From Bacteroidales bacterium (GTDB taxonomy: Bacteria; Bacteroidota; Bacteroidia; Bacteroidales; UBA932), in NCBI GenBank assembly GCA_017553405.1, contig JAFZME010000010.1:1-34099 (forward strand): DNA of 34,099 nt, in the 5' to 3' direction. Each line of letters begins with the position of its first letter. Positions within the stretch are counted from its first letter, which is position 1. Below are positions 1 through 11,261 of this stretch, in pieces. The translations under genes and the position numbers were made by a program. The notes below the pieces were generated by a model. That model had not been told where the DNA came from, did not search any database, and was given only the letters and a program-made list of their open reading frames with translations.

Positions 1-346
1 CTGGTTCATTGATAATCAAGAACTTTTCAATCTCTTCCTTCCACTGTTCCAGCAACGCCTTCGAATGAACGAGTATCAACGTGTTTGTTCTTCGCCTTGC
101 AATCATTCCAATCGCGGCGACCGTCTTTCCGAACGCGGTGGTAGCGGCGAGCACCCCGTTGTTGTATGAGAGCAGTCTTTGAACTGCCGCCTCCTGTTCC
201 GGCCGAAGTTCGCCGGAAAAAGAGACATCGATTATCCTTCCCGCGTTGGTCTGGTCATCCTCTTCCCATGCAGAGAAATTGCTCTGTAGCAATTCTATCA
301 CTGCATCCTCGCATCCCCTTGGCAGTTTGAGGTAATCTTCTGTCAT
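1..346 (-). CDS. SF2 (DEAD/DEAH-type) helicase portion, partial at window edge
   Basis: The frame starting at ATG 344-346 runs off the left edge, giving about 115 residues. It contains LRPEQEAAVQRLL followed by a Walker A-like loop ATTAFGKTVAA (about residues 63-73) and the strand TLILVHSKALLEQW, which is motif Ia of superfamily 2 helicases. It would unwind DNA or RNA with ATP. The opening residues (YLKLPRGC) match the linker that, in the single-chain primase-helicase proteins I know, sits between the primase and helicase domains. The same frame continues backward through 11 codons to a TAA at 377-379, the stop of the upstream primase gene. So this is probably the second half of one broken gene, although the ATG at 346 could restart translation. 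The rest of the helicase lies outside the window. Confidence 0.8.
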   Translation of the reverse strand, partial: MTEDYLKLPRGCEDAVIELLQSNFSAWEEDDQTNAGRIIDVSFSGELRPEQEAAVQRLLSYNNGVLAATTAFGKTVAAIGMIARRRTNTLILVHSKALLEQWKEEIEKFLIINEP

Positions 347-379
347 CTCATAACAAGTCACGAGAGACGGTGTATGTTA
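344..379 (-). pseudogene. In-frame TAA separating primase and helicase halves
   Basis: Minus-strand codons from 379 to 344 read TAA CAT ACA CCG TCT CTC GTG ACT TGT TAT GAG ATG. The primase and helicase frames are identical (379-346 is 33 nt, 11 codons). The residues after the stop, HTPSLVTCYEMTEDYLKLPRGC, still resemble the linker of intact family members (pattern P-x-[LI]-[IV]-x-C-x-E ... YL-x-LPRGC, from memory). A single nonsense change therefore seems to have split one gene. A base-call error or a functional split with restart at ATG 346 are alternatives. Confidence 0.65.
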
Positions 380-1507
380 TAGCGGTTTCCTGGCGTTAAG
401 CAGCTCATAGTATTTGGGATTCCGGAAGGAGGCCAAGCCTTTAAGATGCCTGAGCACCTTTCCGGAAACGCTTTTAATTTGCACATAAAGTCCATTCGCC
501 CGGACAAGTTTGACAGGGCTGTGGAAATCTTCAAATGAAATGCGGTCCGGCTTCGGCGTTTCCCAGGGTTTTGTCTCCGATGACGAAGACAACTCTATCT
601 GATACGCGTGAGTAGCCAGAATGGATTTAAGCTCGGACGCAGATAGTTTCCTTGCCGATGATAACAGAGACCACTGGTCCTTGAAGGCCTCAAAACTCTC
701 ATCTACGAATACGCTGTTTCTGCTTTTTCGAGCCAATCCCTGTAAAGGGAGAGCTATTAGGTTCCCGAAGCCGCCCTTCGGCAAGAAATCTTGATTCGGC
801 AGGAATCTGTCATAAGACTTCATATCCAGACGAACATTGCTTTCCATGGCGGCGCCGATGACAGCGAAGCCTAACCTCCTGGCGTCAGTAGCCAAGATTG
901 GCTCTTCGAAGAATATCCATACATGGGCGCCCTTACCGGAACGAGAGCGCTCGATGTATGCGGAAATACCCCATTCTTTACAAATGCGGACATACGAAAG
1001 GACATCGTCCTGATAACCATGCTCGCAGTTCTTGTCATCAAAATCGGCGCACAAGAAACAAACCGTATTGTCCTCAAGGATTGGATAAATACCGATGACA
1101 TCTGTCTCCTTCGCATCTTTATCCAGATGCCGACGGAAGGCCGTCTCATCCAGCGGAACAAACTCCCTGAAGGGGCAGCCATCACACTTGTATTTATGCT
1201 CTACACACCCGTCTGACCACCTGTTCTTGCAAACAGGTTGATAACCGGCCTTGCCAGTTTTGGAAACGAAGCGCTGCGCAAAAACATCTTCACGCCCTCG
1301 GAACAAACTCCGGAATATGTCTAAACGGCGTTGGATTTCAGCGTCCTTGTCAAGAATTGGTCGAGATGGCTTACTCCCATATTGGGGCGGCTCCGGCTCA
1401 CACAACAAAGAAGAACCATAACCTTTCAAGCGGGCATTCTCCTGCTCTAATTCACGGATACGTGCACGCAAGCGAAGGTTTTCAGCCAGAAGTTCTTCGT
1501 AAGTCAT
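377..1507 (-). CDS. Archaeo-eukaryotic primase (AEP/prim-pol), TOTE conflict system type, stop-truncated
   Basis: This 376-residue protein starts with a short coiled coil (about 1-29). A four-cysteine zinc knuckle follows (C93, C101, C108, C111), then an AEP core: DxD-type motif CADFDD (D155, D157), the GKGAHVW motif with H195, and RFLPNQD...PKGGFGNLIALPLQ (234-256). Family members make primers or fill in DNA; those named 'TOTE conflict system archaeo-eukaryotic primase' normally continue into an SF2 helicase in one chain of roughly 900 residues or more. Here translation stops at TAA 377-379, yet the same frame resumes with the helicase 11 codons later. The ATG overlaps the rloB stop by 4 bp (ATGA), so translation is probably coupled. 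AT-richer than the folE/htpG region. The family call is strong; a role in phage or plasmid conflict is inferred from context. Confidence 0.85.
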   Translation of the reverse strand: MTYEELLAENLRLRARIRELEQENARLKGYGSSLLCEPEPPQYGSKPSRPILDKDAEIQRRLDIFRSLFRGREDVFAQRFVSKTGKAGYQPVCKNRWSDGCVEHKYKCDGCPFREFVPLDETAFRRHLDKDAKETDVIGIYPILEDNTVCFLCADFDDKNCEHGYQDDVLSYVRICKEWGISAYIERSRSGKGAHVWIFFEEPILATDARRLGFAVIGAAMESNVRLDMKSYDRFLPNQDFLPKGGFGNLIALPLQGLARKSRNSVFVDESFEAFKDQWSLLSSARKLSASELKSILATHAYQIELSSSSETKPWETPKPDRISFEDFHSPVKLVRANGLYVQIKSVSGKVLRHLKGLASFRNPKYYELLNARKPL

Positions 1508-2205
1508 TTAGATAAAGAATTAATCCTCTCAATTACGTTTTCCGGATTGTTTAATTCCTCAACCAGTTTGTACACTGTAGTACATGGTTTATGTGAAGCG
1601 TAGTCGGCGCCACTATACCGGCTTTCCAAAGCCTTTGCACTTTTTATGGCCTGCTCTTGGTTTCCAATTTCGGTGAGAAGTTGGTACATGCCCTCATCGT
1701 TCTTTTTATACTCAAACTGCGGATACACTTTTCTAATTTCACGCGTGAGCATTTCAATATACTGATGACGCCCGACCTGCGTATCCAAGAACTGAAAATG
1801 CAGGTAATACCAGAGTTCAAAGGCCTCGTTGGACCATGCCGGATTGACTCCGTTTGATTTGGCATACGCAATGGCATCATTGAAATCCACGAAGTCATCC
1901 TTATCAAATACCGCCCATGTAACATCAAAGTGGATGGGAGAAAGGGCGCGTTTCTTTATAGCAATATCTATCAAAGACTTAGTATTAGCTCCTTCTCCCT
2001 CTATCGTGGCTGTAAGGACCTGTGAATTACGACCTTTCACAAGTGCCTTGAAGTAATTGGGCTCTGTCTTTTCACCCTCGCAGACAATCAAATAGTTCAG
2101 GTGCGTGAGCCTGCTGGCCACTTTAATTTTCTTTTCAAGGTGGTGGGCTTTTCGCTCCCGTTCTCTCATTTCACGGATAGCCTTCCCTGATATAGCTTTT
2201 CCCAT
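1504..2205 (-). CDS. rloB: RloB family protein (TOPRIM-like putative nuclease)
   Basis: The 233-residue product matches RloB. An early strand-loop CEGEKTEPNYF (42-52) carries the conserved glutamate, FDKDDF (100-105) is the acidic pair, SNEAFELWYYLHF (125-137) is the family signature, and a TTVYKLVEEL segment lies near the C-terminus. RloB proteins are predicted TOPRIM-fold nucleases and are usually paired with an ABC-type ATPase (RloA); the related AbiL pair aborts phage infection. The partner is present here: only one base separates the rloA stop (2207) from this ATG (2203-2205). Downstream, the stop overlaps the primase ATG by 4 bp. All three would be made from one message. Length is normal and no key acidic residue seems to be missing. 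Nuclease activity itself is an inference from the fold. Confidence 0.88.
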   Translation of the reverse strand: MGKAISGKAIREMRERERKAHHLEKKIKVASRLTHLNYLIVCEGEKTEPNYFKALVKGRNSQVLTATIEGEGANTKSLIDIAIKKRALSPIHFDVTWAVFDKDDFVDFNDAIAYAKSNGVNPAWSNEAFELWYYLHFQFLDTQVGRHQYIEMLTREIRKVYPQFEYKKNDEGMYQLLTEIGNQEQAIKSAKALESRYSGADYASHKPCTTVYKLVEELNNPENVIERINSLSK

Positions 2206-2206
2206 A

Positions 2207-3415
2207 TTAATCCTCCCAATCGTAATTCAGATAAGGGATGGCACCGTATTTCCCCTGGATGTAATCCTTTTCGAAGCTGCGGTCATTACGCACCTTCACA
2301 CCCTCAGCATCCTTGAATTCAGCAAGGCAATACAAATCTGAAGATTCCGTTTTGTCCTTCTCGACGAACCAGATTTGGTCGCGTCGGAAAATCTTGGAAC
2401 TAAGGAGGTTGGTATCATGCGTTGTAAATATCAACTGGGCACCTTTAGGGTTTGTCTTGGCATTGTTGAAGAGCCCGATTACATATTTCGTAATCAAAGG
2501 ATGCATCGCCCGGTCAACTTCGTCAACAACCAAAGGAGATCCTTCCGCAAGTGCACTCATAATCAGATATATAATATCGAACAAACGGTTTGTACCTGCC
2601 GATTCGGATGTCTTCATTGAAAAACGCTTGTTTCCTATGACGTGCCCGTTGTCATCATAGACATTATGCGTTGTCCAAGCCTTCACCGCCTTGGCTTCTT
2701 CAACGGAAGAGGGTATTTCAAAGGAAGTAAAGCCAAAGTCAAGATTCTTGAAAACCTTTATCACATCGTCAGAATATACCTCTTTAGCAGTTTGAATAAA
2801 TGCGAGTTGCGCATCAAAGAGCTCTTGGGAATTATCCGGAAGAGGCGGAATAACAATGCTATGGACCAGTTCTTTTGCTACCGGACCATTAAAAGCATCG
2901 CATACTGAAAGAAAAAGTGCGTTGCTGCGAGTCCTTTCTTCCAAGCCTTTTCCTTCACTAAATGAGGACGATACGCCGATGTTATCCCCCTCACGTATGA
3001 AAAGGTTTTTCTCGGAACGGCTACCAATCCTATACAGCCATTCCTTAACAATAAAGTCTTGTGTACATTCAAATCCGTAGCGATAATAGTAAAGCGACGG
3101 CGTTATAACCTCAATCTCAAAGAAAGAAGGTTCCTTTTCGCTGGTTCCATCCAGAAGAAACGGAATCACAGGTAAACGGGAGATGGAGCTACTGGACGAA
3201 GACTTATTCACCATTGCAGAGAAAGCGCCAAAAGCATGAAGGAAATTGCTCTTGCCGCTGGAGTTGGCGCCGTACAACGCGGCAGACGGCAGAAGCTGGT
3301 GTTTTCCTACCTCAATAACCTGACTCCCACTATCTTTAATTGGTGCCGCCTCCAGGCTCAATGTTTTCTTCCCCCGGAACGACAGGAAGTTTCCGACTGT
3401 GAAATTGACAAGCAT
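2207..3415 (-). CDS. rloA: RloA-type AAA/ABC-like ATPase (AbiLii-like)
   Basis: A 402-residue ATP-binding protein of the SMC/ABC-like group found with RloB. It opens with MLVNFTVGNFLSFRG, the usual first strand of such ATPases. Walker A is GANSSGKS (49-56). A signature-like ESAGTNRL precedes Walker B PLVVDEVDRAMHP (D298, E299), and FTTHD (330-334) supplies the H-loop. These ATPases are thought to sense a phage-derived signal and control the partner nuclease. It is the first gene of the rloA-rloB-primase run, and a good Bacteroidota promoter lies just upstream. The start is supported by homology-like N-terminal sequence and promoter distance. The gene is AT-richer than the chromosomal genes to its right, consistent with transfer. 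Confidence 0.88.
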   Translation of the reverse strand: MLVNFTVGNFLSFRGKKTLSLEAAPIKDSGSQVIEVGKHQLLPSAALYGANSSGKSNFLHAFGAFSAMVNKSSSSSSISRLPVIPFLLDGTSEKEPSFFEIEVITPSLYYYRYGFECTQDFIVKEWLYRIGSRSEKNLFIREGDNIGVSSSFSEGKGLEERTRSNALFLSVCDAFNGPVAKELVHSIVIPPLPDNSQELFDAQLAFIQTAKEVYSDDVIKVFKNLDFGFTSFEIPSSVEEAKAVKAWTTHNVYDDNGHVIGNKRFSMKTSESAGTNRLFDIIYLIMSALAEGSPLVVDEVDRAMHPLITKYVIGLFNNAKTNPKGAQLIFTTHDTNLLSSKIFRRDQIWFVEKDKTESSDLYCLAEFKDAEGVKVRNDRSFEKDYIQGKYGAIPYLNYDWED

Positions 3416-3436
3416 ACTTTAATCAGTTTGTTTCTG

Positions 3437-3468
3437 CAAATATAACGTATCTGAACTATTTTTGCAAT
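3437..3468 (-). promoter_or_regulatory. Predicted promoter of the rloA-rloB-primase operon
   Basis: On the minus strand a -7 box TATATTTG (plus 3437-3444, CAAATATA) fits the Bacteroidota consensus TAnnTTTG. A TTG (plus 3465-3467) lies 20 bp upstream as the -33 element. It is about 22 bp before the rloA ATG and downstream of the integrase stop, so the defence genes can be expressed without the integrase. Confidence 0.7.
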
Positions 3469-3473
3469 AAATA

Positions 3474-3488
3474 TGAGAATATTTCTCA
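3474..3488. promoter_or_regulatory. Small inverted repeat upstream of rloA promoter
   Basis: TGAGAA-TAT-TTCTCA is a perfect 6-bp inverted repeat with a 3-bp spacer, 6 bp upstream of the -33 element of the rloA promoter. The position would suit a regulator-binding site, but no regulator gene is visible in the island part of this window. It could be chance in AT-rich DNA. Confidence 0.3.
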
Positions 3489-3520
3489 AAATTTCGTTGA
3501 TTTTGGTCAAAAACATGGTA

Positions 3521-4831
3521 TTACAATTCCAGCAGCTTCCTGGCCTCATCCTCGATTGTACTCTTCAGAAATCTAGCATAGGATTTTTGCGTGGAGATGA
3601 TAGTTGTGTGCCCCAGGAGAGCGCTGACGACCTCAAGTCGAATGCCTTTGTTGAGTGCATTGACAGCGAAGGTGTGGCGTGCCATGTGGAAGGTAACGGG
3701 CTTATCGAAACCCAATTCAAATGAAACATCGGCAAGAATCCGGTTGAACGATTTGTCTTTGCTGTTGCGTTCCATGAAGAATGCCTCGGCCTCAGTTACA
3801 TCGTAATCGGCCGGGAGAAGATCGAATACAAAGCGAGGATTCCTCCCCTTCCAGGCTTGCAGAATATCCATAGCAGGCCGAGATAGCGGAACCGGAATCG
3901 GCATCAGGCGCTTTGTCTTATATTGAACCTTCCGCAATTCTGACTTTTCCCAATTGATATGACTCCATTCCAGCGTAAGGATATCTGACAGACGCAGGCC
4001 TCCGGCATAATAAGAGAAATAGAACATCTGAAGTACTTCGCGGCGGCGGGAAAACTTTGTGCTCTCCATATAGTTAAGCAACTGAGCCTGTTGAGCATCC
4101 GTCAGAAATCGCACAGGGCCCTCCAGTTCATCTCCCGGCCTATATGAATGCGGATACGAATCCAGTCTGTTTTCCAGAATGGGCGCGGCAGCAACAGGTG
4201 ATACCATGCCGACCTTTATGGCATATTGCAGGGCGTTATGGAGCGGCCTGAGGGTCTGATTAATCGCCTCGGTGCTCTTGTTGTGCCGCCATTCCATCCG
4301 ATACCGAATAAATGCCTCAAAGGTTTCGGGGTTTAGTTTCATCAGCGTCATCGGCTTACCTCCGGTATGGTATTTCTCAAAGTCAGAAAACACACGCAGA
4401 TAACTCCGCTGATTGTAATAGGTCTGATAGGTGATTTGTTTCTTGACGAACCTCGATTCCAGATATTCCAACGCAAAATCGACAAGCGTTACCATCCTGG
4501 GACGGTCTTCCTCTGCAACATGCGTCCCTTTTAGGATTGAACCGATGAGTGTAATCGTCAGGTTTTCGGGTTTACACTTACCGATTTGTTCCATAATCCC
4601 AGCCTTAAAAGCCGCGAGCTCCGCATTGACGGATAGCGCCTCCTCAGTATCCCCAGTTGCCGTTTCCCTCCGACTGTCCCATAGGTCGGGTTCGATGGAA
4701 ACTCCTGTTGAAACATGCCGGCTTGCGCCTTTGTAATACACCCTGCAATGGATTTGCCGATGGCCAGTTCGCGTTAGCTTGCCATGAAGACAGAAATGTA
4801 CTGTGAGTACAGTATTCTTTTGATTTGTCAT
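3521..4831 (-). CDS. Tyrosine recombinase (integrase), Bacteroidetes type
   Basis: The 436-residue protein has the three-part build of Bacteroidetes integrases: an arm-binding N-terminus (about 10-60), a SAM-like core-binding domain (about 110-210) and a catalytic domain (about 240-430). The catalytic set is complete: R280 in GGLRLSDIL, a lysine at 305 or 307 (QYKTKR), H382 and R385 in HMARHTF, H408 in LLGHTT, and nucleophile Y418 in KSYARFL. It should cut and rejoin DNA at att sites to integrate or excise an element. It sits at the edge of the island carrying rloA, rloB and the primase-helicase, reading in the same direction, with a 105-bp gap to rloA that holds a separate promoter. An att-like inverted repeat and 12-bp repeats lie just upstream of its start. 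The target site is not proven. Confidence 0.93.
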   Translation of the reverse strand: MTNQKNTVLTVHFCLHGKLTRTGHRQIHCRVYYKGASRHVSTGVSIEPDLWDSRRETATGDTEEALSVNAELAAFKAGIMEQIGKCKPENLTITLIGSILKGTHVAEEDRPRMVTLVDFALEYLESRFVKKQITYQTYYNQRSYLRVFSDFEKYHTGGKPMTLMKLNPETFEAFIRYRMEWRHNKSTEAINQTLRPLHNALQYAIKVGMVSPVAAAPILENRLDSYPHSYRPGDELEGPVRFLTDAQQAQLLNYMESTKFSRRREVLQMFYFSYYAGGLRLSDILTLEWSHINWEKSELRKVQYKTKRLMPIPVPLSRPAMDILQAWKGRNPRFVFDLLPADYDVTEAEAFFMERNSKDKSFNRILADVSFELGFDKPVTFHMARHTFAVNALNKGIRLEVVSALLGHTTIISTQKSYARFLKSTIEDEARKLLEL

Positions 4832-4839
4832 GATAAAAA

Positions 4840-4874
4840 GTGTTTTGGTTATCCGGTAATGATAGCCAAAACAC
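4840..4874. repeat. Inverted repeat (14-bp arms, 7-bp spacer) at the integrase start: att-core-like or attenuator
   Basis: Arms 4840-4853 and 4861-4874 match at 13 of 14 positions around CGGTAAT. This is the geometry of a tyrosine-recombinase core site (inverted arms around a 7-bp crossover). In the integrase message the same sequence forms a long stem followed by UUUUUAUC and then the AUG, which also looks like an intrinsic terminator or attenuator limiting integrase expression. Both readings are inference. Confidence 0.55.
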
Positions 4875-4948
4875 AGTTAAGCAACTCTTACTACTCTTTC
4901 TCCTGAAGGAGGAGGAATACTGCCACAAATCGGCAGCTTCGAAAAAAA

Positions 4949-4984
4949 GAGGGTAAAACAGTGGGCAAAAAAGAGGGCAATACG
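4949..4984. repeat. Three tandem 12-bp repeats, possible integrase arm sites
   Basis: GAGGGTAAAACA, GTGGGCAAAAAA and GAGGGCAATACG follow one another without spacing (4949-4960, 4961-4972, 4973-4984). They share the pattern G-[AT]-GGG-[TC]-AA. Short direct repeats near an integrase gene are typical arm-type binding sites for its N-terminal domain, but this is inferred only from position. Confidence 0.45.
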
Positions 4985-4991
4985 AAATAAA

Positions 4992-5023
4992 AATCGGCCC
5001 CAGAGTGCACTCTAAGGCCGATT
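4992..5023 (-). terminator. Intrinsic terminator downstream of the DUF2795 gene
   Basis: AATCGGCC (4992-4999) pairs with GGCCGATT (5016-5023). Between them lies a perfect 12-bp palindrome AGAGTGCACTCT (5002-5013), so the stem is nearly continuous with one 2x2 mismatch. On the minus strand it is followed by TTTATTT, fitting rho-independent termination of the DUF2795 transcript. Confidence 0.65.
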
Positions 5024-5030
5024 CCAACAA

Positions 5031-5068
5031 ATAACCGCCCATAAAGAGGGTAGCTTTAGGGCGGTTAT
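5031..5068. repeat. 10-bp perfect inverted repeat between terminator and DUF2795 gene
   Basis: ATAACCGCCC (5031-5040) and GGGCGGTTAT (5059-5068) flank an 18-bp loop. No T-tract follows on either strand, so it is not a standard terminator. It may be an RNA-stabilising 3' stem or part of the island junction. Confidence 0.5.
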
Positions 5069-5094
5069 AAATCTCTAATATTCAATGAGTTGCA

Positions 5095-5316
5095 TCAATA
5101 CTCCTCCTCGTTAAAGAAGAAGTCCTCTTTGGTGGGGTAATCGGGCCAGATGTCCTCGATGGATTCGTAGATTTCGCCGTCGTCTTCAAGCTCCTGGAGG
5201 TTCTCCATCACCTCTTCCGGGGCGCCGGAACGGTTGGCGTAATCGATAAGCTCGTCTTTGGTTGCGGGCCACGGAGCGTCGTCAAGGCGTCCGGCAAGTT
5301 CAAGTGTCCAAAACAT
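5095..5316 (-). CDS. DUF2795 family small protein
   Basis: A 73-residue acidic protein beginning MFWTLELAGRLDDAPWPATK and ending FFFNEEEY. I recognise it as the DUF2795-type protein that is nearly invariant in Bacteroidales. Its function is not known; the central stretch (PATKDELIDYANRSGAPEEV) looks like a small helical, nucleic-acid-binding-like fold, but that is only an impression. No signal peptide or membrane segment is seen. It is divergent from folE and shares a symmetric promoter region with it. Downstream are the two hairpins at 4992-5068. It most likely marks the first native chromosomal gene to the right of the integrase island, because its composition and conservation are those of the core genome. 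Confidence 0.85.
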   Translation of the reverse strand: MFWTLELAGRLDDAPWPATKDELIDYANRSGAPEEVMENLQELEDDGEIYESIEDIWPDYPTKEDFFFNEEEY

Positions 5317-5374
5317 AATAATAAAGTACTAATAATCAATAACAAATAAGCGAAAGAGCGGCGAGCGCTCCATC

Positions 5375-5439
5375 GGGGCTGCAAAGATATATAAAAAATC
5401 AAAATCCCATCAAAAAAATTTACTATTTTTGCAGCCCCG
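5375..5439. promoter_or_regulatory. Symmetric divergent promoters of the DUF2795 gene and folE
   Basis: A -7 box TATCTTTG for the DUF2795 gene lies on the minus strand (plus 5382-5389) and TATTTTTG for folE on the plus strand (5424-5431). The two are embedded in a perfect 12-bp inverted repeat, CGGGGCTGCAAA (5374-5385) and TTTGCAGCCCCG (5428-5439). Both messages would therefore begin with the same CAGCCCCG-type leader. A TTTG at minus 5411-5414 may be the -33 box for DUF2795; none is clear for folE. Confidence 0.6.
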
Positions 5440-5454
5440 AATGAAAATTTGAAT

Positions 5455-6039
5455 ATGGCATACAAAAAAACAGAACAGTTCGACCACACCGAAGAAATCG
5501 CGGCCCACGTAAAGGCCATCCTCAGGCTCCTCGGAGAGGATCCTGAAAGGGAGGGTCTGCAGAAGACCCCCGAAAGGGTTGCAAAGGCGATGCAGTTCCT
5601 GACCAAGGGCTACGAGGAGAACGGCGTGGAGATAGTCCGCTCCGCCGTTTTCAATGAAGACTACAGCCAGATGGTCATCGTGAAGGACATCGAGCTGTTC
5701 TCGCTCTGCGAGCACCATATGCTCCCCTTCATCGGAAAAGCCCACGTGGCCTATATCCCCAACGGCCGGATCACCGGGCTCAGCAAGATCGCCCGTGTGG
5801 TGGAGACCTTCGCCCGCAGGCTTCAGGTCCAGGAGAGGCTCACCGTCGAGATCCGCGACTGCATCAACGAGTCGCTGAAGCCCCTCGGCGTCGCCGTCGT
5901 CATCGAGGCTATGCACACCTGTATGTCAATGAGAGGAGTCCAGAAATCCAACGCGATCACGACCACTTCGGCCTTCTCGGGTGCATTTCTGAACTCCACA
6001 CGCACAAGGAACGAATTCCTTGACCTTATCAAAGGTTAA
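5455..6039 (+). CDS. folE: GTP cyclohydrolase I
   Basis: This 194-residue enzyme opens the GTP ring to give 7,8-dihydroneopterin triphosphate, the first step to folate (and to queuosine-type 7-deazapurines by a related route). The zinc ligands are visible: C85 and H88 in LCEHHMLPF, and C156 in [11 protein letters not shown]. The substrate motif [20 protein letters not shown] (109-128) is intact. A TTG six bases upstream could extend the protein by two residues, but ATG 5455 (MAYKK) fits the family better. A -7 promoter box ends 23 bp upstream. The gene converges on htpG and the two stop codons overlap (6036-6039), with no room for a terminator between them. Confidence 0.97.
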
Positions 6040-8051
6040 TCCTTCTTCAAATAGGCGTCGCTGACGACCTTGCGGCTTCTCTCGATGAAATCCGAGAGGG
6101 CCTTGCCCTTCAGCATACCGTTGGAGAGCAGGGCGATGTCCACAATCTGACGAAGAGCCTCATTGCCCTTGGCAAAGGCCTCGATGTCGGCTCTGTGGGC
6201 ATTTCTGACAGCCTCACGAGCCTCCCTGGCAGCCTTCTTGTCTTCTTCAGAAGCATCTTTGTCAGCCTCCGGAGGCAGCTCGCCCTGAGGGGCGACAGCC
6301 GATTTCTCGGCGTCGAGGATCATAGCGACGAGCGGATTCTCCATATTGACGGTGATGTTGTAGGACTCTGGCATCTCGCCGTAGAAGTTCATACCGCCGC
6401 CGAGGGCGCTCATCTCGCGGTAGCGGCGCATAAACTCGTTCTGGGTGATGAGGATTGCGGGCTCGTTCTCGCCGAGGTTGTCGCCCTCGACGTAGTAGTC
6501 GTTGCCCTCGGGGAGGACGGCCTTGAAGAGGTTCTCAAGGTCGTAGCGGGCATCTTCGGCCATTTCCAGCTTCACCCTCTCCTCCTTGGGAATGAGCCTC
6601 TCCACGCTGTCGGAATCGACGCGCGCGAAGCGGCAGCCTTCCATCTTCCTTTCAAGCAGGTTGACATAGTGGGCGTCCAGCTCGCAGTCGAACAGGAGGA
6701 CGTCGTAGCCCTTGTTCTTCGCATCCTCGATGAAGCGGTACTGGTCCTCGACGGAAGTCGCATAGAGGCAGACGACCTTCTTGTCCTTGTCGGTCTGCTG
6801 GCCATCGATAGCGGCCTTGTACTCGTCGAAGCTGAAGAACTTGCCGTCGGTGTTCTTGAGAAGGGCGAACTTGAGGGCCCTGTCGCAGAACTTCTCGTCG
6901 GAAAGCATACCGTACTCGATGAAGAGCTTGAGGTTGTCCCATTTCTTTTCGAGATCGGGCCTCTGCTCCTTGAAGATCTCTTCAAGCCGGTCGGCGACTT
7001 TCTTGGTGATATAGGTGGATATCTTCTTGACGTTCTCGTCGCTCTGGAGGTAGCTGCGGGAAACGTTGAGCGGGATGTCAGGAGAGTCGATCACGCCGTG
7101 GAGGAGCGTCATAAAGTCGGGAACGATGTTGTCCACGTGGTCCGTGACGAACATACGGTTGCAGTAGAGGGATATCTTGTTGCGGTCGATGGCAACCCTT
7201 TCCTTGATCTTCGGGAAATAGAGGATGCCGGTGAGATTGAACGGGTAGTCCACATTGAGGTGGATATAGAACAGCGGATCCTCGTTCATCGGATACAGGG
7301 CCTTGTAGAAGGCCTTGTAGTCCTCCTCCTTGAGCTCGGACGGGGCCTTGGTCCATAGAGGCTCGATGTTGTTGATAATCTTGTCCTTATCCGTGTCGAC
7401 ATACTTGCCGTCCTTCCACTCCTGCTCCTTGCCGAAGACTATCGGCACGGGCATAAACTTGCAGTATTTGCCGAGCAGGCCTTCGATGCGGCTCTTTTCG
7501 GCATATTCAGCGGAGTCGTCATCGAGGTAGAGGGTAATCGTGGTGCCGCGCTCCTTACGGTCGGACTCGCCCATCTCGTATTCGGGAGAGCCGTCGCAAC
7601 TCCAGCGGACAGCCTTCTCGCCTTCCTTCCAGGAAAGGGTGTCGATGGTCACCTTCCTGGAGACCATAAACGCGCTGTAGAAGCCAAGGCCGAAGTGGCC
7701 GATGATGCTGCCGATCTGGTCTTTGTACTTCTCGAGAAACTCCCCTGCGCTGGAGAAGGCGATCTGGTTGATGTACCTGTCCACCTCCTCGGCGGTCATA
7801 CCGATGCCGCTGTCGGAAACCTTCAGGATCTTTTTCTTTTCGTCGAGCTCGATCACGACCTTCAGGTCGCCGGTCTCTTCCTTGAATTCGCCGCTGGAGG
7901 CAAGGGCCTTGAGCTTTTCAGTGGCGTCCACCGCATTGGCGACGATCTCCCGCAGGAAAATCTCGTGGTCGCTGTAAAGGAACTGCTTGATGACCGGGAA
8001 TATGTTTTCCGTGGTAACCCCGATCTGTCCTTTGTTTGTTTTCTTTGACAT
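6036..8051 (-). CDS. htpG: Molecular chaperone HtpG (Hsp90)
   Basis: A full-length 671-residue bacterial Hsp90, a cytosolic ATP-dependent dimeric chaperone. The GHKL ATPase domain shows [15 protein letters not shown] (catalytic Glu and Mg-binding Asn), DSGIGMT and [13 protein letters not shown]. The middle domain carries the conserved SRSYLQSD segment, and a C-terminal dimerisation domain follows. A charged, Lys/Glu/Ala-rich stretch near residues 590-620 ([20 protein letters not shown]) looks like a linker or insertion relative to the E. coli protein. It starts at ATG 8049-8051. Its stop overlaps the folE stop on the opposite strand. The upstream 130 bp holds a dispersed repeat and a hairpin rather than a clear consensus promoter. 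Confidence 0.97.
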
Positions 8052-8069
8052 AATATTTTGTTTTTATTT

Positions 8070-8105
8070 AGATTCTCTCGCTTCTTCGAAGCTCGGAATG
8101 ACAAG
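8070..8105. repeat. Dispersed repeat copy (single arm), variant of the 12170-12255 repeat
   Basis: The stretch begins GATTCTCTCGCTTCTTCGAA and continues GCTCGGAATGACAA. It is a diverged version of the arm at 12170-12199 (AGATTTCTCGACTTCGCTCG then AAATGACAA). Such 'GTCATTTCGAGCGAAG...GAGAAATCT' repeats occur in intergenic regions of Bacteroidota genomes. It sits directly upstream of htpG. Confidence 0.55.
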
Positions 8106-8112
8106 GAGACAA

Positions 8113-8140
8113 CAGAACCGACCTTGCCAAGTCGGTTCTG
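8113..8140. repeat. Perfect 10-bp hairpin upstream of htpG
   Basis: CAGAACCGAC (8113-8122) and GTCGGTTCTG (8131-8140) flank an 8-bp loop. It lies between the lipoprotein gene and htpG, both on the minus strand. It may end the lipoprotein transcript, but no run of T follows on either strand, so termination would be weak. Confidence 0.5.
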
Positions 8141-8183
8141 CGAAAGTCAAATTGTATTCCAAAGGGGAAATTATGACAAAATG

Positions 8184-8885
8184 TCATATTTCACGGATGA
8201 ACTGGTGGGTGTCACCACTGCCGGTGTAGAGGAGGAAAAGGCCGTCGATGCGGTCGCCGTTTTGATAGACGTCCATAGTAAGGCCTCCCTTGCAGCTGGC
8301 CCACGAAGAAGACTCGCGATAGCCGGCGTCATAGAAAAGGGGGTCGGACGTGGAACATTTGGCGGTGTAGCCCTCCTGCTCCGTCCTTTCAAACTCGGTG
8401 AAACTGACATACCAGCTGAAATGGCTTCCGCCGCGGGCGGAATGATATGACTTGCGGCAGGTGACAAGGAGGGAATACTTTGTGGGATAGCTGCCGGAAG
8501 GCAGGGCGTATTCGGCGTCACGGGAGAGGATCCAGGTGCTGTCCTGCGCCGTTTTCTCCATCTTCACGCCCTTGATGCTGGCCTCCCTGTCGATTGTCCA
8601 AACCGAGCCCTCGCTCCAGATGGAATGGCCGTCAGGGTGGATGACGGCGGCCTCGTCGGTCTCGTATCTGCCCATCTTGTCGAAGAGAATCGCGCCTTCG
8701 GCTGCAAGGAGGTTGTCAGCGACAAACTGCTGGGCAATGGAGCAGAGGTACTTCTCGTAGGCGGTGGTGTTCTCCGCACTGTCGGAGCCTTTTATCGGAT
8801 TGCTCTTTGTGCTGTCCACGTAGTAGGATTTGGTGCAGGAAACTGACACCAGAAGCATTATCACAAGAAAGAATGACTTTTTCAT
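8184..8885 (-). CDS. Hypothetical lipoprotein
   Basis: A 233-residue protein with a lipoprotein signal: MKKSFF, a hydrophobic stretch and a lipobox ending at C17 (LLVSVSC, then TKSYYVDS). The mature part has no domain that I recognise. It is rich in aromatic and charged residues, with paired elements such as SIWSEGSVWTID and SGSYPTKYSLLVTCRKSYHS that suggest a beta-rich extracytoplasmic fold. It follows the outer-membrane barrel gene at 8892-9527 by only 6 bp and is surely cotranscribed with it. The two may work together at the cell surface or on the inner face of the outer membrane. Function unknown. Confidence 0.75.
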   Translation of the reverse strand: MKKSFFLVIMLLVSVSCTKSYYVDSTKSNPIKGSDSAENTTAYEKYLCSIAQQFVADNLLAAEGAILFDKMGRYETDEAAVIHPDGHSIWSEGSVWTIDREASIKGVKMEKTAQDSTWILSRDAEYALPSGSYPTKYSLLVTCRKSYHSARGGSHFSWYVSFTEFERTEQEGYTAKCSTSDPLFYDAGYRESSSWASCKGGLTMDVYQNGDRIDGLFLLYTGSGDTHQFIREI

Positions 8886-8891
8886 AACCTC

Positions 8892-9527
8892 TTAGAATCT
8901 GTAACCGATGCCGGTCCTTCCGCCGAACATATAATTGCCAAGTGAAATTTCGATGAAGCCGCAGACCTTGCGGCCGACAGAGAATCCGATCGGCACGATT
9001 TCGAAAACCGGATCGATCTTCTTGATGCCGTTGTCAGGAGTGATGCCGTTGCCCCAGCGGAAAACAGGGCCTATGCCGAACCCGCCATAGCAGCAGGTGT
9101 ATTTGGACATTGCGAAATAGAAACGCACTCTTGGCATAATGGATATTTCCTCGATGCTGAGAGACCAGAGCGTCCTGCCGTCCGACTCGTTGCAGACATT
9201 GCCGACCACGTGGTCGTAGTTGGCCTCGAGGGAGACCTTGAGCCACTTTTTAATGGAATAGCCCGCCTCGAAAGAAAAAGACGGAGTGCACCACGCCGGA
9301 GAGATGTAGGTGTGGACAGTGTTGCCGTAGAGGTTGATAAGATCCGGATCGGTCTTGTAGAGGGCGGAAGGATCCGTGACAGTCTTCATATCCTCGAAGA
9401 AATGGGTCTTCGGGACACCGCCGACGCCAAGAGCCACTTCCCATTTGTGCTCGTAGCTCTGGGCCCGAGAGGCAAGCGGGAACACAAGCAGGAGCGCCAA
9501 AAGCGCTGCGAACTTTTTCGTTTTCAT
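8892..9527 (-). CDS. Outer-membrane beta-barrel protein, hypothetical
   Basis: 211 residues. I chose ATG 9525-9527 because it gives a clean Sec signal (MKTKKFAALLALLLVFPLASRAQ, cleavage after Ala); the frame is open 12 codons further up without a signal. The mature part alternates hydrophobic and polar residues in strands (FSFEAGYSIKKWLKVSLEANYDHV, RVRFYFAMSKYTCCYGGFGIG, GFIEISLGNYMFGGR) and ends in Phe, as outer-membrane barrels do. About eight to ten strands could fit. It precedes the lipoprotein gene by 6 bp and follows an acyl-CoA synthetase gene by 59 bp. No specific porin or enzyme family is recognised. Confidence 0.75.
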   Translation of the reverse strand: MKTKKFAALLALLLVFPLASRAQSYEHKWEVALGVGGVPKTHFFEDMKTVTDPSALYKTDPDLINLYGNTVHTYISPAWCTPSFSFEAGYSIKKWLKVSLEANYDHVVGNVCNESDGRTLWSLSIEEISIMPRVRFYFAMSKYTCCYGGFGIGPVFRWGNGITPDNGIKKIDPVFEIVPIGFSVGRKVCGFIEISLGNYMFGGRTGIGYRF

Positions 9528-9586
9528 CCTTGCAAGTATATGGATATCAATACTTAGATGCAAACTTCCAAAGGAACGTTGCAGCT

Positions 9587-11224
9587 CTACTTGTAGAGGA
9601 AGCGGCGAATGGACATCTTCGGAGTCTTCTCGAAGGGCTTGTCCTGGCGCTCGACGGTGACGATGCGGCTGTAGATGGGGAGCTTGCGGTTGGCGCCGTT
9701 GCGGATAAGCTCGGGGATGTCGGAGATGTGCTCCGCATCGAGGAGATCCTTCGCAATCTGCTGCTCGTCGAGGAAGACGAGGGCGACGAGCTTGCCGCCG
9801 CGGTCCACCACGACCGACTCGAGGACATAGGGCTCGTTGTTGACGACGGCCTCAACCTCTTCCGGATAGATGTTCTGGCCGGAAGGGCCGAGAATCATAT
9901 TCTTGGAGCGGCCGCGGATGAAGATGTTGCCGTCGGCGTCGATGATGCCGAGGTCGCCGGTCTTGAGGTAGCCGTCGTCGGTGAAGGCGCTGGCGGATGC
10001 TTCTTCGTTCTTGTAGTAGCCGATGCAGATGTTGTCGCCCTTGGCCTGGATCTCGCCCACGACGTGCTGGGGATCTTCGGAGTCGATCCTGACGTCAGCG
10101 CAGTCGACCGCCTTGCCGCAGGAGCCGGGGACATACTTGGTCCAGTGCTCATAGGCGAGCAGCGGAGCCGCCTCGGTCATACCGTAGCCCACGAGATAGG
10201 GGAACTTGATCTTCTTGAAGAAGCGCTCGACCTCGGGGTTGAGGGCCGCGCCGCCCATAATGAACTCCTGGACTTCGCCGCCGAAGGCCTTGATGAGCTC
10301 CTTGCGGATCTTGTTGTAGATGATGCCGCGGAGGCCGGGGATCTTGAGGGCCAGCTTGATGGCGGGCTTGTCGAGAGTGGGCTTGACCTTGGACTTGTAG
10401 ATCTTCTCCATCACGAGAGGCACGGTGATAAGCAGGTAGGGCTTGACCTCGGCGAACGCCTTGAGAAGCGTGGCCGGAGTCGGAGCCTTGCCGAGCCAGT
10501 AGATGGAGGTGCCGTTGCAAAGAGGATAGATGAATTCTATCACGAGGCCGTACATATGGGCCATCGGGAGCATCGAGACCATCCTCTCGCCGGCAGGGAC
10601 ATTCTTCTGCGAGTACTCTACCGTCGCCGAGAAATTGCGGTAGATGAGCATCACGCCCTTTGGGTTGCCGGTGGAGCCGGAGGTGTAGTTGATGACGGCG
10701 AGGTCGTCCCAGTTGTCGGTCGGGAAGACGACGTCGTCGGGGCCGTAGCCATCCGGCCACTTGGCGGCGAACGCCTCGTCGGCGCCGTCGAAAGCGGCCT
10801 TGAGCTTGTCGTCGACGGCATAGATGACCTTGAAGGTGTCCACGTCGACAACCACCTTAAGACGCGGCATCTGGGCCTTGTCGAGCTTGTCCCAGCGGGC
10901 CTTGTTGGTGAATAATATGACACTCTCGGAATGGTCCGTGAGGAAAGTCACGTTGTCCGGGGTGAAATCTGCGAGGATGGGAACTATGACAGCTTCGTAG
11001 GTGTTGACTGCAAGGAACACCATACCCCAACGGGCACCGTTGGAGGCGCAGAGGGCGATCTTGTCGCCTTTCTTGATGCCGGCCGCGGCAAATGCAAGGT
11101 GGAATTTTTCGATGCGCTGCGCCATTTCGGCGTAGGTGAAGCTTTCACCGCCGAGGGTGTTGAGCGCGCTCTTGTCCCAGAATTTACGGGTGGCTTTCTG
11201 AAGCCTGGAAAGATAATGTTCCAT
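9587..11224 (-). CDS. AMP-forming long-chain acyl-CoA synthetase (first paralogue)
   Basis: 545 residues from ATG 11222-11224 (MEHYLSRLQKAT); the frame is open a further 14 codons upstream without a likely start. The adenylation motifs are clear: YTSGSTGNPKGVM binds ATP, YGMTEAAPL is the A5 motif, and GDLGIIDADGNIFIRGRSKN leads to the hinge; SGQNIYPEEVE follows. A C-terminal lysine segment KTPKMSIRRFLYK carries the probable catalytic Lys. The enzyme would activate a fatty (or other carboxylic) acid as acyl-AMP and transfer it to CoA. The substrate cannot be read from sequence. A close relative is at 28847-30529, and both end in RRFLYK. A -7 box TACATTTG lies about 30 bp upstream. Confidence 0.9.
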   Translation of the reverse strand: MEHYLSRLQKATRKFWDKSALNTLGGESFTYAEMAQRIEKFHLAFAAAGIKKGDKIALCASNGARWGMVFLAVNTYEAVIVPILADFTPDNVTFLTDHSESVILFTNKARWDKLDKAQMPRLKVVVDVDTFKVIYAVDDKLKAAFDGADEAFAAKWPDGYGPDDVVFPTDNWDDLAVINYTSGSTGNPKGVMLIYRNFSATVEYSQKNVPAGERMVSMLPMAHMYGLVIEFIYPLCNGTSIYWLGKAPTPATLLKAFAEVKPYLLITVPLVMEKIYKSKVKPTLDKPAIKLALKIPGLRGIIYNKIRKELIKAFGGEVQEFIMGGAALNPEVERFFKKIKFPYLVGYGMTEAAPLLAYEHWTKYVPGSCGKAVDCADVRIDSEDPQHVVGEIQAKGDNICIGYYKNEEASASAFTDDGYLKTGDLGIIDADGNIFIRGRSKNMILGPSGQNIYPEEVEAVVNNEPYVLESVVVDRGGKLVALVFLDEQQIAKDLLDAEHISDIPELIRNGANRKLPIYSRIVTVERQDKPFEKTPKMSIRRFLYK

Positions 11225-11253
11225 AAAAACGAGGTTTGTTTTAATACAACTCA

Positions 11254-11261
11254 CAAATGTA
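11254..11261 (-). promoter_or_regulatory. -7 box of acyl-CoA synthetase gene
   Basis: Minus-strand TACATTTG fits TAnnTTTG and lies 29 bp before the ATG at 11224. No clear TTTG is found at the -33 distance. Confidence 0.45.

Follow-up and report, generated by a model that had tools for sequence, protein, structure and literature searches.

Do the three genes that open a contig of a Bacteroidales bacterium, rloA, rloB and a primase-helicase gene, constitute one composite defence cassette, as was proposed from the bare letters of the locus (hereafter, the original prediction), or is the third gene an acquisition of a separate two-gene system? The genes occupy the first 3,415 positions of the window, i.e., the whole analysed stretch of 34,099 nucleotides of contig JAFZME010000010.1 (assembly GCA_017553405.1; G000:C130 in our set); window base 1, which falls within the helicase, is also the first base of the contig. 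The trio is confirmed as a real unit: a small clade conserves it, with purifying selection acting on it. The explanation that we consider moderately probable is that an AbiL-type RloAB pair captured a separate AEP-primase/SF2-helicase as a third co-translated cistron and is self-repressed via a palindrome upstream of rloA.

The three-gene unit and its close relatives

The genes are arranged as follows:

2207 to 3415, minus strand: rloA, AbiLi-like ABC/AAA_21 ATPase of 402 residues (Pfam and PADLOC matches)
1504 to 2205, minus strand: rloB, RloB/AbiLii TOPRIM-type protein of 233 residues (Pfam and PADLOC matches)
377 to 1507, minus strand: AEP primase part of the primase-helicase gene, 376 residues, AEP-TOTE domain at 623–1327, ending in TAA 379–377
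2 to 376, minus strand: SF2 (XPB-like) helicase part, in frame beyond the stop, truncated by the end of the contig

The tight run that had been described was borne out, with a gap of 1 base pair (bp) between rloA and rloB and an overlap of 4 bp (ATGA) between rloB and the AEP part. The family calls agree with the profile searches: RloA matches AAA_21 (Pfam, 1.2e-32) and, across residues 1–398, AbiLi of PADLOC (2.7e-93), RloB matches Pfam RloB (1.5e-43) and PADLOC AbiLii (4e-29), and the third gene matches Pfam AEP-TOTE (PF22548, 3.2e-88, 295.6 bits with a cut-off of 27) and, in its helicase part, ResIII (2.8e-10) and DEAD (1.1e-06). The P-loop residues G49, G54 and K55 of RloA are invariant together with D298 and E299 among 41 aligned sequences, and among 44 aligned RloB sequences the acidic residues E43 and D101 are invariant and D103 nearly so. 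In 16 aligned AEP homologues, the window not being one of them, D155, D157 and H195 (L158 numbering) do not vary, nor do the AEP and helicase motifs. The closest solved AEP chains are PDB 7nqd/7nqf (best 1.2e-26), which we take to be the Marinitoga prim-pol, and the closest helicases are XPBII. The domains assigned to the third gene stand, but the gene is not a single open frame: an in-frame TAA at 379–377 splits AEP from helicase, and about 125 codons are visible past this stop before the contig ends.

A scan of genome contigs with RloB, from which the best 80 of 309 confirmed loci were taken, returned close relatives of the window. In locus L158, whose RloB is 95% identical, all three genes are present with both junctions alike, and the primase-helicase is intact at 949 residues. 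Both L159 (94%) and L160 (91%) keep rloA and rloB open and carry the same ATGA junction, after which 68 and 89 AEP residues, respectively, are followed by unrelated DNA; what is left in L273 (genome G706) is the last 61 RloB residues, the ATGA junction and a few AEP codons. RloAB is also present in L161 and L162 (82%), where an AEP match was not found. The junction is carried by five of these seven close loci, the window included; rloA and rloB are both open in four of the five and the primase-helicase is whole in one.

Selection was estimated for the window against L158 with our own script (Nei-Gojobori type count). The ratio of non-synonymous to synonymous substitution (dN/dS) is 0.048 for RloA, 0.057 for RloB and 0.089 for AEP before the stop, at dS of 0.50–0.81, and the 125 codons past the stop are 96.8% identical to L158 with dN/dS of 0.020. 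Purifying selection is strong on all three genes, therefore the trio was functional until recently; since selection on the codons past the stop is not relaxed relative to the others, the TAA is either recent or an assembly base error. Tight spacing alone is ordinary, because a same-strand upstream neighbour is equally tight in 137 of 415 other genes (at least 100 residues) of the examined loci. What is above chance is the recurrence of the junction in four other genomes (L158, L159, L160 and L273), with proteins conserved across it. To this extent the composite cassette of the original prediction is a real unit, within its small clade; as a kind of system it does not hold, as the wider searches described below indicate.

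The primase-helicase outside the clade

Four primase-helicase proteins were used as queries against 125 RloB loci (80 from the genome scan, 40 of a second set and 5 viral), of which 118 of the first 120 have at least 500 bp behind rloB. A match was present in four loci, directly behind rloB in L158, L159 and L160 and upstream of rloA in L210, which is the same locus as L092. At the level of the order, 393 genomes were covered, 118 of them with RloB and 42 with AEP-TOTE; same-contig neighbours of the two were sought there only among the RloB matches listed, and the AEP locus maps are independent of these. In the phylum sample AEP was found in 25 of 296 genomes; with the window's own set aside, 10 of the other 24 also have RloB, never on the same contig.

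Among the 57 AEP loci that were mapped, a recognised AEP frame is present in 52; RloA or RloB is a neighbour in the window clade, L068, L092 and L093 only (a weak AAA match in L069 was left out of this count). In the latter three AEP stands within 5 kb of RloA, in other gene orders and with 0.8–2 kb between. A rough estimate for scattered genes gives 0.06–0.08 AEP loci with RloB within 7 kb; the higher number of RloA-near loci speaks against a wholly random picture and is as expected for genes sharing defence islands. Elsewhere, the products of genes directly upstream of AEP include a DUF4143 ATPase, AbiEii, AbiD/Abi_2, Schlafen-AlbA, an Eco57I-type methylase, RhuM, HipA and DUF3307, and on an Acinetobacter plasmid it is a HigB-family toxin with a regulator. 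The primase-helicase of L066 and L245 (approximately 7027–11255) overlaps a DUF4143 AAA_14 ATPase by 4 bp, a further tight pairing found in two genomes, and the L066 ATPase matches the PADLOC candidate PDC-S01. A separate feature of the family is a C-terminal IIDKSxxWYGSxN-like motif (L158 2827–5676, residues ~830–949), conserved in a part of it and without Pfam match, which has some likeness to phospholipase-D-like nucleases.

Tight coupling was considered as evidence in its own right and rejected. If a locus is called tight when the upstream neighbour lies on its strand at a distance of −60 to +25 bp, 22 of 47 assessable AEP loci (L159 and L160 excluded) are tight vs the 137 of 415 other genes (Fisher p=0.074), which is not above background; gene calls were simple longest frames and the gaps are approximate. 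The upstream side of AEP is tighter than the downstream side (22/47 vs 8/46, p=0.0036), and this indicates that AEP tends to end operons and says no more. Because its neighbours vary and its coupling is at background, the primase-helicase acts as a free-standing gene able to end many operons. In our reading, it is a separate defence-island gene which was captured by the AbiL-type pair. AEP plus RloAB was thus rejected as a general system, since 121 of the 125 RloB loci are without an AEP match and AEP neighbours are varied. The situation named beforehand as contrary to the composite cassette, i.e., random neighbours of the primase-helicase with either RloAB or the primase-helicase alone conserved, is largely the one encountered (4/125 loci).

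A palindrome upstream of rloA

Two further features precede the operon:

3474 to 3489, minus strand: palindrome TTGAGAAATATTCTCA with core TGAGA-N5-TCTCA, candidate operator of rloA-rloB(-aep)
3437 to 3467, minus strand: promoter-like TTG-N20-TATATTTG of the Bacteroidota −33/−7 type, just downstream of the palindrome, read by eye

The promoter-like sequence fits, by eye, the Bacteroidota −33/−7 consensus. The rloA-upstream region is otherwise diverged among the close loci, and TTGAGARATWTTCTCA is kept in the window and L158–L161; the pattern was first read off these five, which are therefore training cases. The RloB and AEP searches supplied 117 distinct RloA loci that have no less than 100 bp of upstream sequence, and in these the pattern was examined. 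The core is exact in 51 of the 117 and within one mismatch in 67, and with the training loci removed it is exact in 46 of 112. Exact cores number 63 in 30,333 bp of rloA-upstream DNA vs 4 in the other 1,558,182 bp of these loci, and two of these 4 lie just inside frames whose start was, in our reading, probably called too early. Nine permuted palindromes gave 0 sites. The 52 AEP loci (664,690 bp) hold one exact core, which is beside an RloA, and 9 of a further 30 RloA loci, found via RloA itself and overlapping with the first set, have it exact.

Two copies, each within one mismatch, are present in 24 loci at spacings of 38–39, 49–51 or 61–64 bp, and in 21 of the 24 a TAnnTTTG box lies between them; this box occurs in 52 core-bearing loci vs 10.15 in single-base shuffles. 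Presence of the palindrome tracks the RloA tree, with 13 changes where shuffles give 38, and reaches beyond Bacteroidota, to Bacillota (L205, exact; L232, one mismatch) and Lentisphaerota (L190, one mismatch). Example loci are L191, L196, L207, L108, L178 and L205. In the window's genome the 16-base pattern, at no more than one mismatch, occurs only at this site. An attachment site or a host regulon was considered and is disfavoured, given the sole site in the genome, the agreement with the RloA tree and the absence of a widely recurring linked gene.

Is the palindrome a site in DNA or a hairpin in RNA? Nine flanking positions were tested in the 67 core loci. Complementarity exceeds that of shuffles at the first position outside the core (38 loci, shuffle mean 27.1, P 0.001), slightly so at position 4 (P 0.03) and position 5 (P 0.01), and not at the remaining six (P 0.08–0.57); the two inner pairs are below shuffles. 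A protein-bound DNA site is favoured over an RNA hairpin because the core is fixed, the paired copies have set spacings and the distances to the −7 box are discrete. The copy spacings fit a period of 11.5 bp best, not 10.5 (10 to 12 tried in 0.5 steps, with related loci non-independent).

No linked gene family (frames of at least 60 residues) was found in more than 4 of the 67 core loci, the largest being AEP itself, and because no neighbouring family recurs, the binding protein would most simply be RloA or RloB. In L093 (11403–12783; G184:C29) rloA is intact and preceded by two palindromes, and rloB seems to have been shortened to a stub of its start, with nine matching residues in the expected position, which alone are not significant; the remnant is followed by a 362-residue gene shared with L092, a gene that we read as AlbA-like, and the primase-helicase. 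L093 gives a single hint towards RloA as the possible binder. A specific palindrome at the operon promoter, which is one mark of a self-regulated toxin-antitoxin-like operon, is found here, and the palindrome looks like an operator for RloAB self-regulation.

What the trio may do

In the explanation that we favour, RloA and RloB alone would form the core, with RloA as sensor/antitoxin ATPase and RloB as TOPRIM nuclease effector. RloA would restrain RloB until a phage product acting on RloA releases it, and freed RloB would cut nucleic acid, so that the cell stops. The primase-helicase would have a parallel activity of its own, directed at phage DNA or at intermediates of replication, under the promoter and control of RloAB. 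RloA (or RloAB) bound to TGAGA-N5-TCTCA probably holds transcription down, by analogy with toxin-antitoxin operons. The window's own third gene would be either broken or a victim of assembly error. These biochemical steps and the identity of the binder are what we infer from gene content, spacing, homology, selection, the recurrent loss of the third gene and the palindrome. The loss of AEP in L159 and L160, where rloA and rloB stay open, argues for a captured gene. Published work offers a frame for the core: in the available part of one source, AbiL is described as an Abi system of two cistrons whose effector is a TOPRIM protein, AAA-domain antitoxins pair with OLD-TOPRIM toxins and RloB is tied to the same AAA node in the network (PMC10440598), and in that of another, the AbiLii of a Fusobacterium proved toxic to E. 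coli (PMC3985639). A more elaborate version, which we put forward tentatively, makes RloA both sensor and repressor on one or two operators, so that infection would free RloB and raise expression, with the primase-helicase as an inducible third effector.

Several points weigh against the favoured explanation. The core, within one mismatch, was not found in 50 of the 117 RloA loci, and the window has a single palindrome copy, just upstream of the promoter-like sequence. There is no sign that AEP prefers operons of defence genes, and strong purifying selection on the AEP of the trio fits an integrated third subunit equally with a passenger. In the sections available of PMC10440598, modelling found no convincing interface between AAA antitoxin and toxin, and one AAA pair screened against phages gave no hits. 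Lactococcus AbiLi and AbiLii were non-toxic in E. coli and Fusobacterium AbiLii was not neutralised by its AbiLi, according to the portion at hand of PMC3985639, and because of these results the antitoxin role of RloA is not secure.

A rival account, possible yet doubtful in our estimation, is that the third gene is a functionless leftover, dead in the window and most of the clade, and that RloAB alone matters. It draws on the TAA of the window, the 68 and 89 residues left in L159 and L160, the short start in L273, and stops or frame breaks at differing positions in four of the 14 AEP genomes of the window's family (G344, G397, G536 and G576; loci L009/L069, L150/L250, L151/L251 and L152/L252). 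However, L158 is intact and the codons past the stop are selected as strongly as RloAB; because of this selection, the loss appears recent and the gene to have mattered. The stop may also be an assembly error.

Less probable, and in our view unlikely, is one three-part machine in which RloA senses DNA that was made, unwound or remodelled by the primase-helicase, and RloB kills, in a Gabija- or retron-Eco8-like manner. Conserved coupling and purifying selection of all three genes at dS of ~0.5–0.8, the same junction in five loci and the AEP near RloA in L068, L092 and L093 are all consistent with it, as is the occurrence of OLD nucleases beside a UvrD-like helicase or in retron cassettes, which is described in the accessible part of PMC10568477. 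Such a machine is hard to reconcile with 121 of 125 RloB loci without an AEP match, with AEP standing mostly beside other neighbours, and with RloAB remaining open where AEP is truncated (L159, L160).

The most improbable account takes the primase-helicase for a gene that replicates or maintains an integrated mobile element, RloAB being the cargo of this element, and although an integrase lies 105 bp off, AEPs are common on mobile elements (PMC5862659, in the text available), homologues are on 110 of 72,556 plasmid records, 3 of 6 inspected plasmids have integrase, transposase or conjugation genes nearby and the sole viral-contig relative (L062) adjoins several integrases, the helicase is XPB/RadD-like and not of replicative type, one of 50,697 phage records matches, covering 34% of the query, and many loci adjoin restriction, Abi or toxin-antitoxin-type genes.

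Genomic setting

The integrase neighbour that had been noticed is indeed present:

3521 to 4831, minus strand: tyrosine integrase, neighbour of the operon (Pfam Phage_integrase 5.9e-22, Arm-DNA-bind_5 2.3e-08)

It lies 105 bp upstream of rloA and is probably no part of the operon's function; L158 has at this place a different frame without Pfam match, which clusters with an integrase-like gene of L161. The gene beyond the integrase is folE in our reading. Window positions 4832–6036 are matched in 21 of 26 same-genus genomes (the window's own counted), and the longest of these matches, own genome aside, start at about 5070–5100 and stop short of the integrase. These matches would fit an inserted island. 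Rfam gave nothing at gathering score in window 1–6000, and no tRNA was found within the window.

Meaning and comparison with known systems

The trio is a natural experiment, since close copies exist with an intact, a nonsense-bearing, a truncated and an absent third gene, which allow testing whether the primase-helicase adds to an AbiL-type system or just travels along. The palindrome is a specific and cheap lead on the control of a widespread ATPase-TOPRIM defence pair: it gives a prediction of the DNA bound by RloA or RloB and a means of locating and classifying RloAB operons across several phyla. In the open-access literature, no paper was found that joins RloB, primase and helicase, nor one that joins TOTE, primase and TOPRIM.

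Among known systems, the CRISPR-associated prim-pol is alike in its AEP domain and differs in that the third gene scores 102.8 bits with the PrimPol_Msp equivalog, below the cut-off of 200. The AEP-TOTE primase domain (PF22548) of the TOTE conflict system is present here; the name is taken from Pfam, and no open-access paper was found with the phrase TOTE conflict or defining the system. Gabija and retron-Eco8 resemble the trio in having an ATPase-TOPRIM module beside a nucleic-acid enzyme, as far as the available text of PMC10568477 describes them; an OLD nuclease goes with a helicase in Gabija and with a reverse transcriptase in retron-Eco8. The trio, however, encodes its ATPase and its TOPRIM protein in two different genes, unlike GajA with its fused TOPRIM, and in place of the GajB helicase it has an AEP primase joined to one of XPB-like type. 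Gaj profiles were absent from the matches listed for the five window proteins (for RloA, the best 25 of 29).

PARIS shares with the trio the separate genes for an ABC ATPase (AriA) and a TOPRIM nuclease (AriB); in PARIS, phage proteins are sensed by AriA, whereupon AriB is set free and cleaves tRNA (PMC12409363, in the part available). The AriA profile does match RloA (2.7e-28), but far behind AbiLi (2.7e-93), and the partner is not of AriB type: at E 0.001 AbiLii was the sole PADLOC match of RloB and AriB was not found.

The nearest system is AbiL of Lactococcus, with the same order of ATPase and then RloB-family protein and with AbiLi and AbiLii as the best PADLOC matches; an AbiLi/RloA-family ATPase is followed directly, after 1 bp, by its RloB/AbiLii partner. 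The locus differs from AbiL by the palindrome before rloA, none having been found described for AbiL in those parts of the open-access literature that were available, and by the third co-translated primase-helicase in this clade. We rate the trio as a new form of AbiL-type defence, and the palindrome as its most testable by-product.

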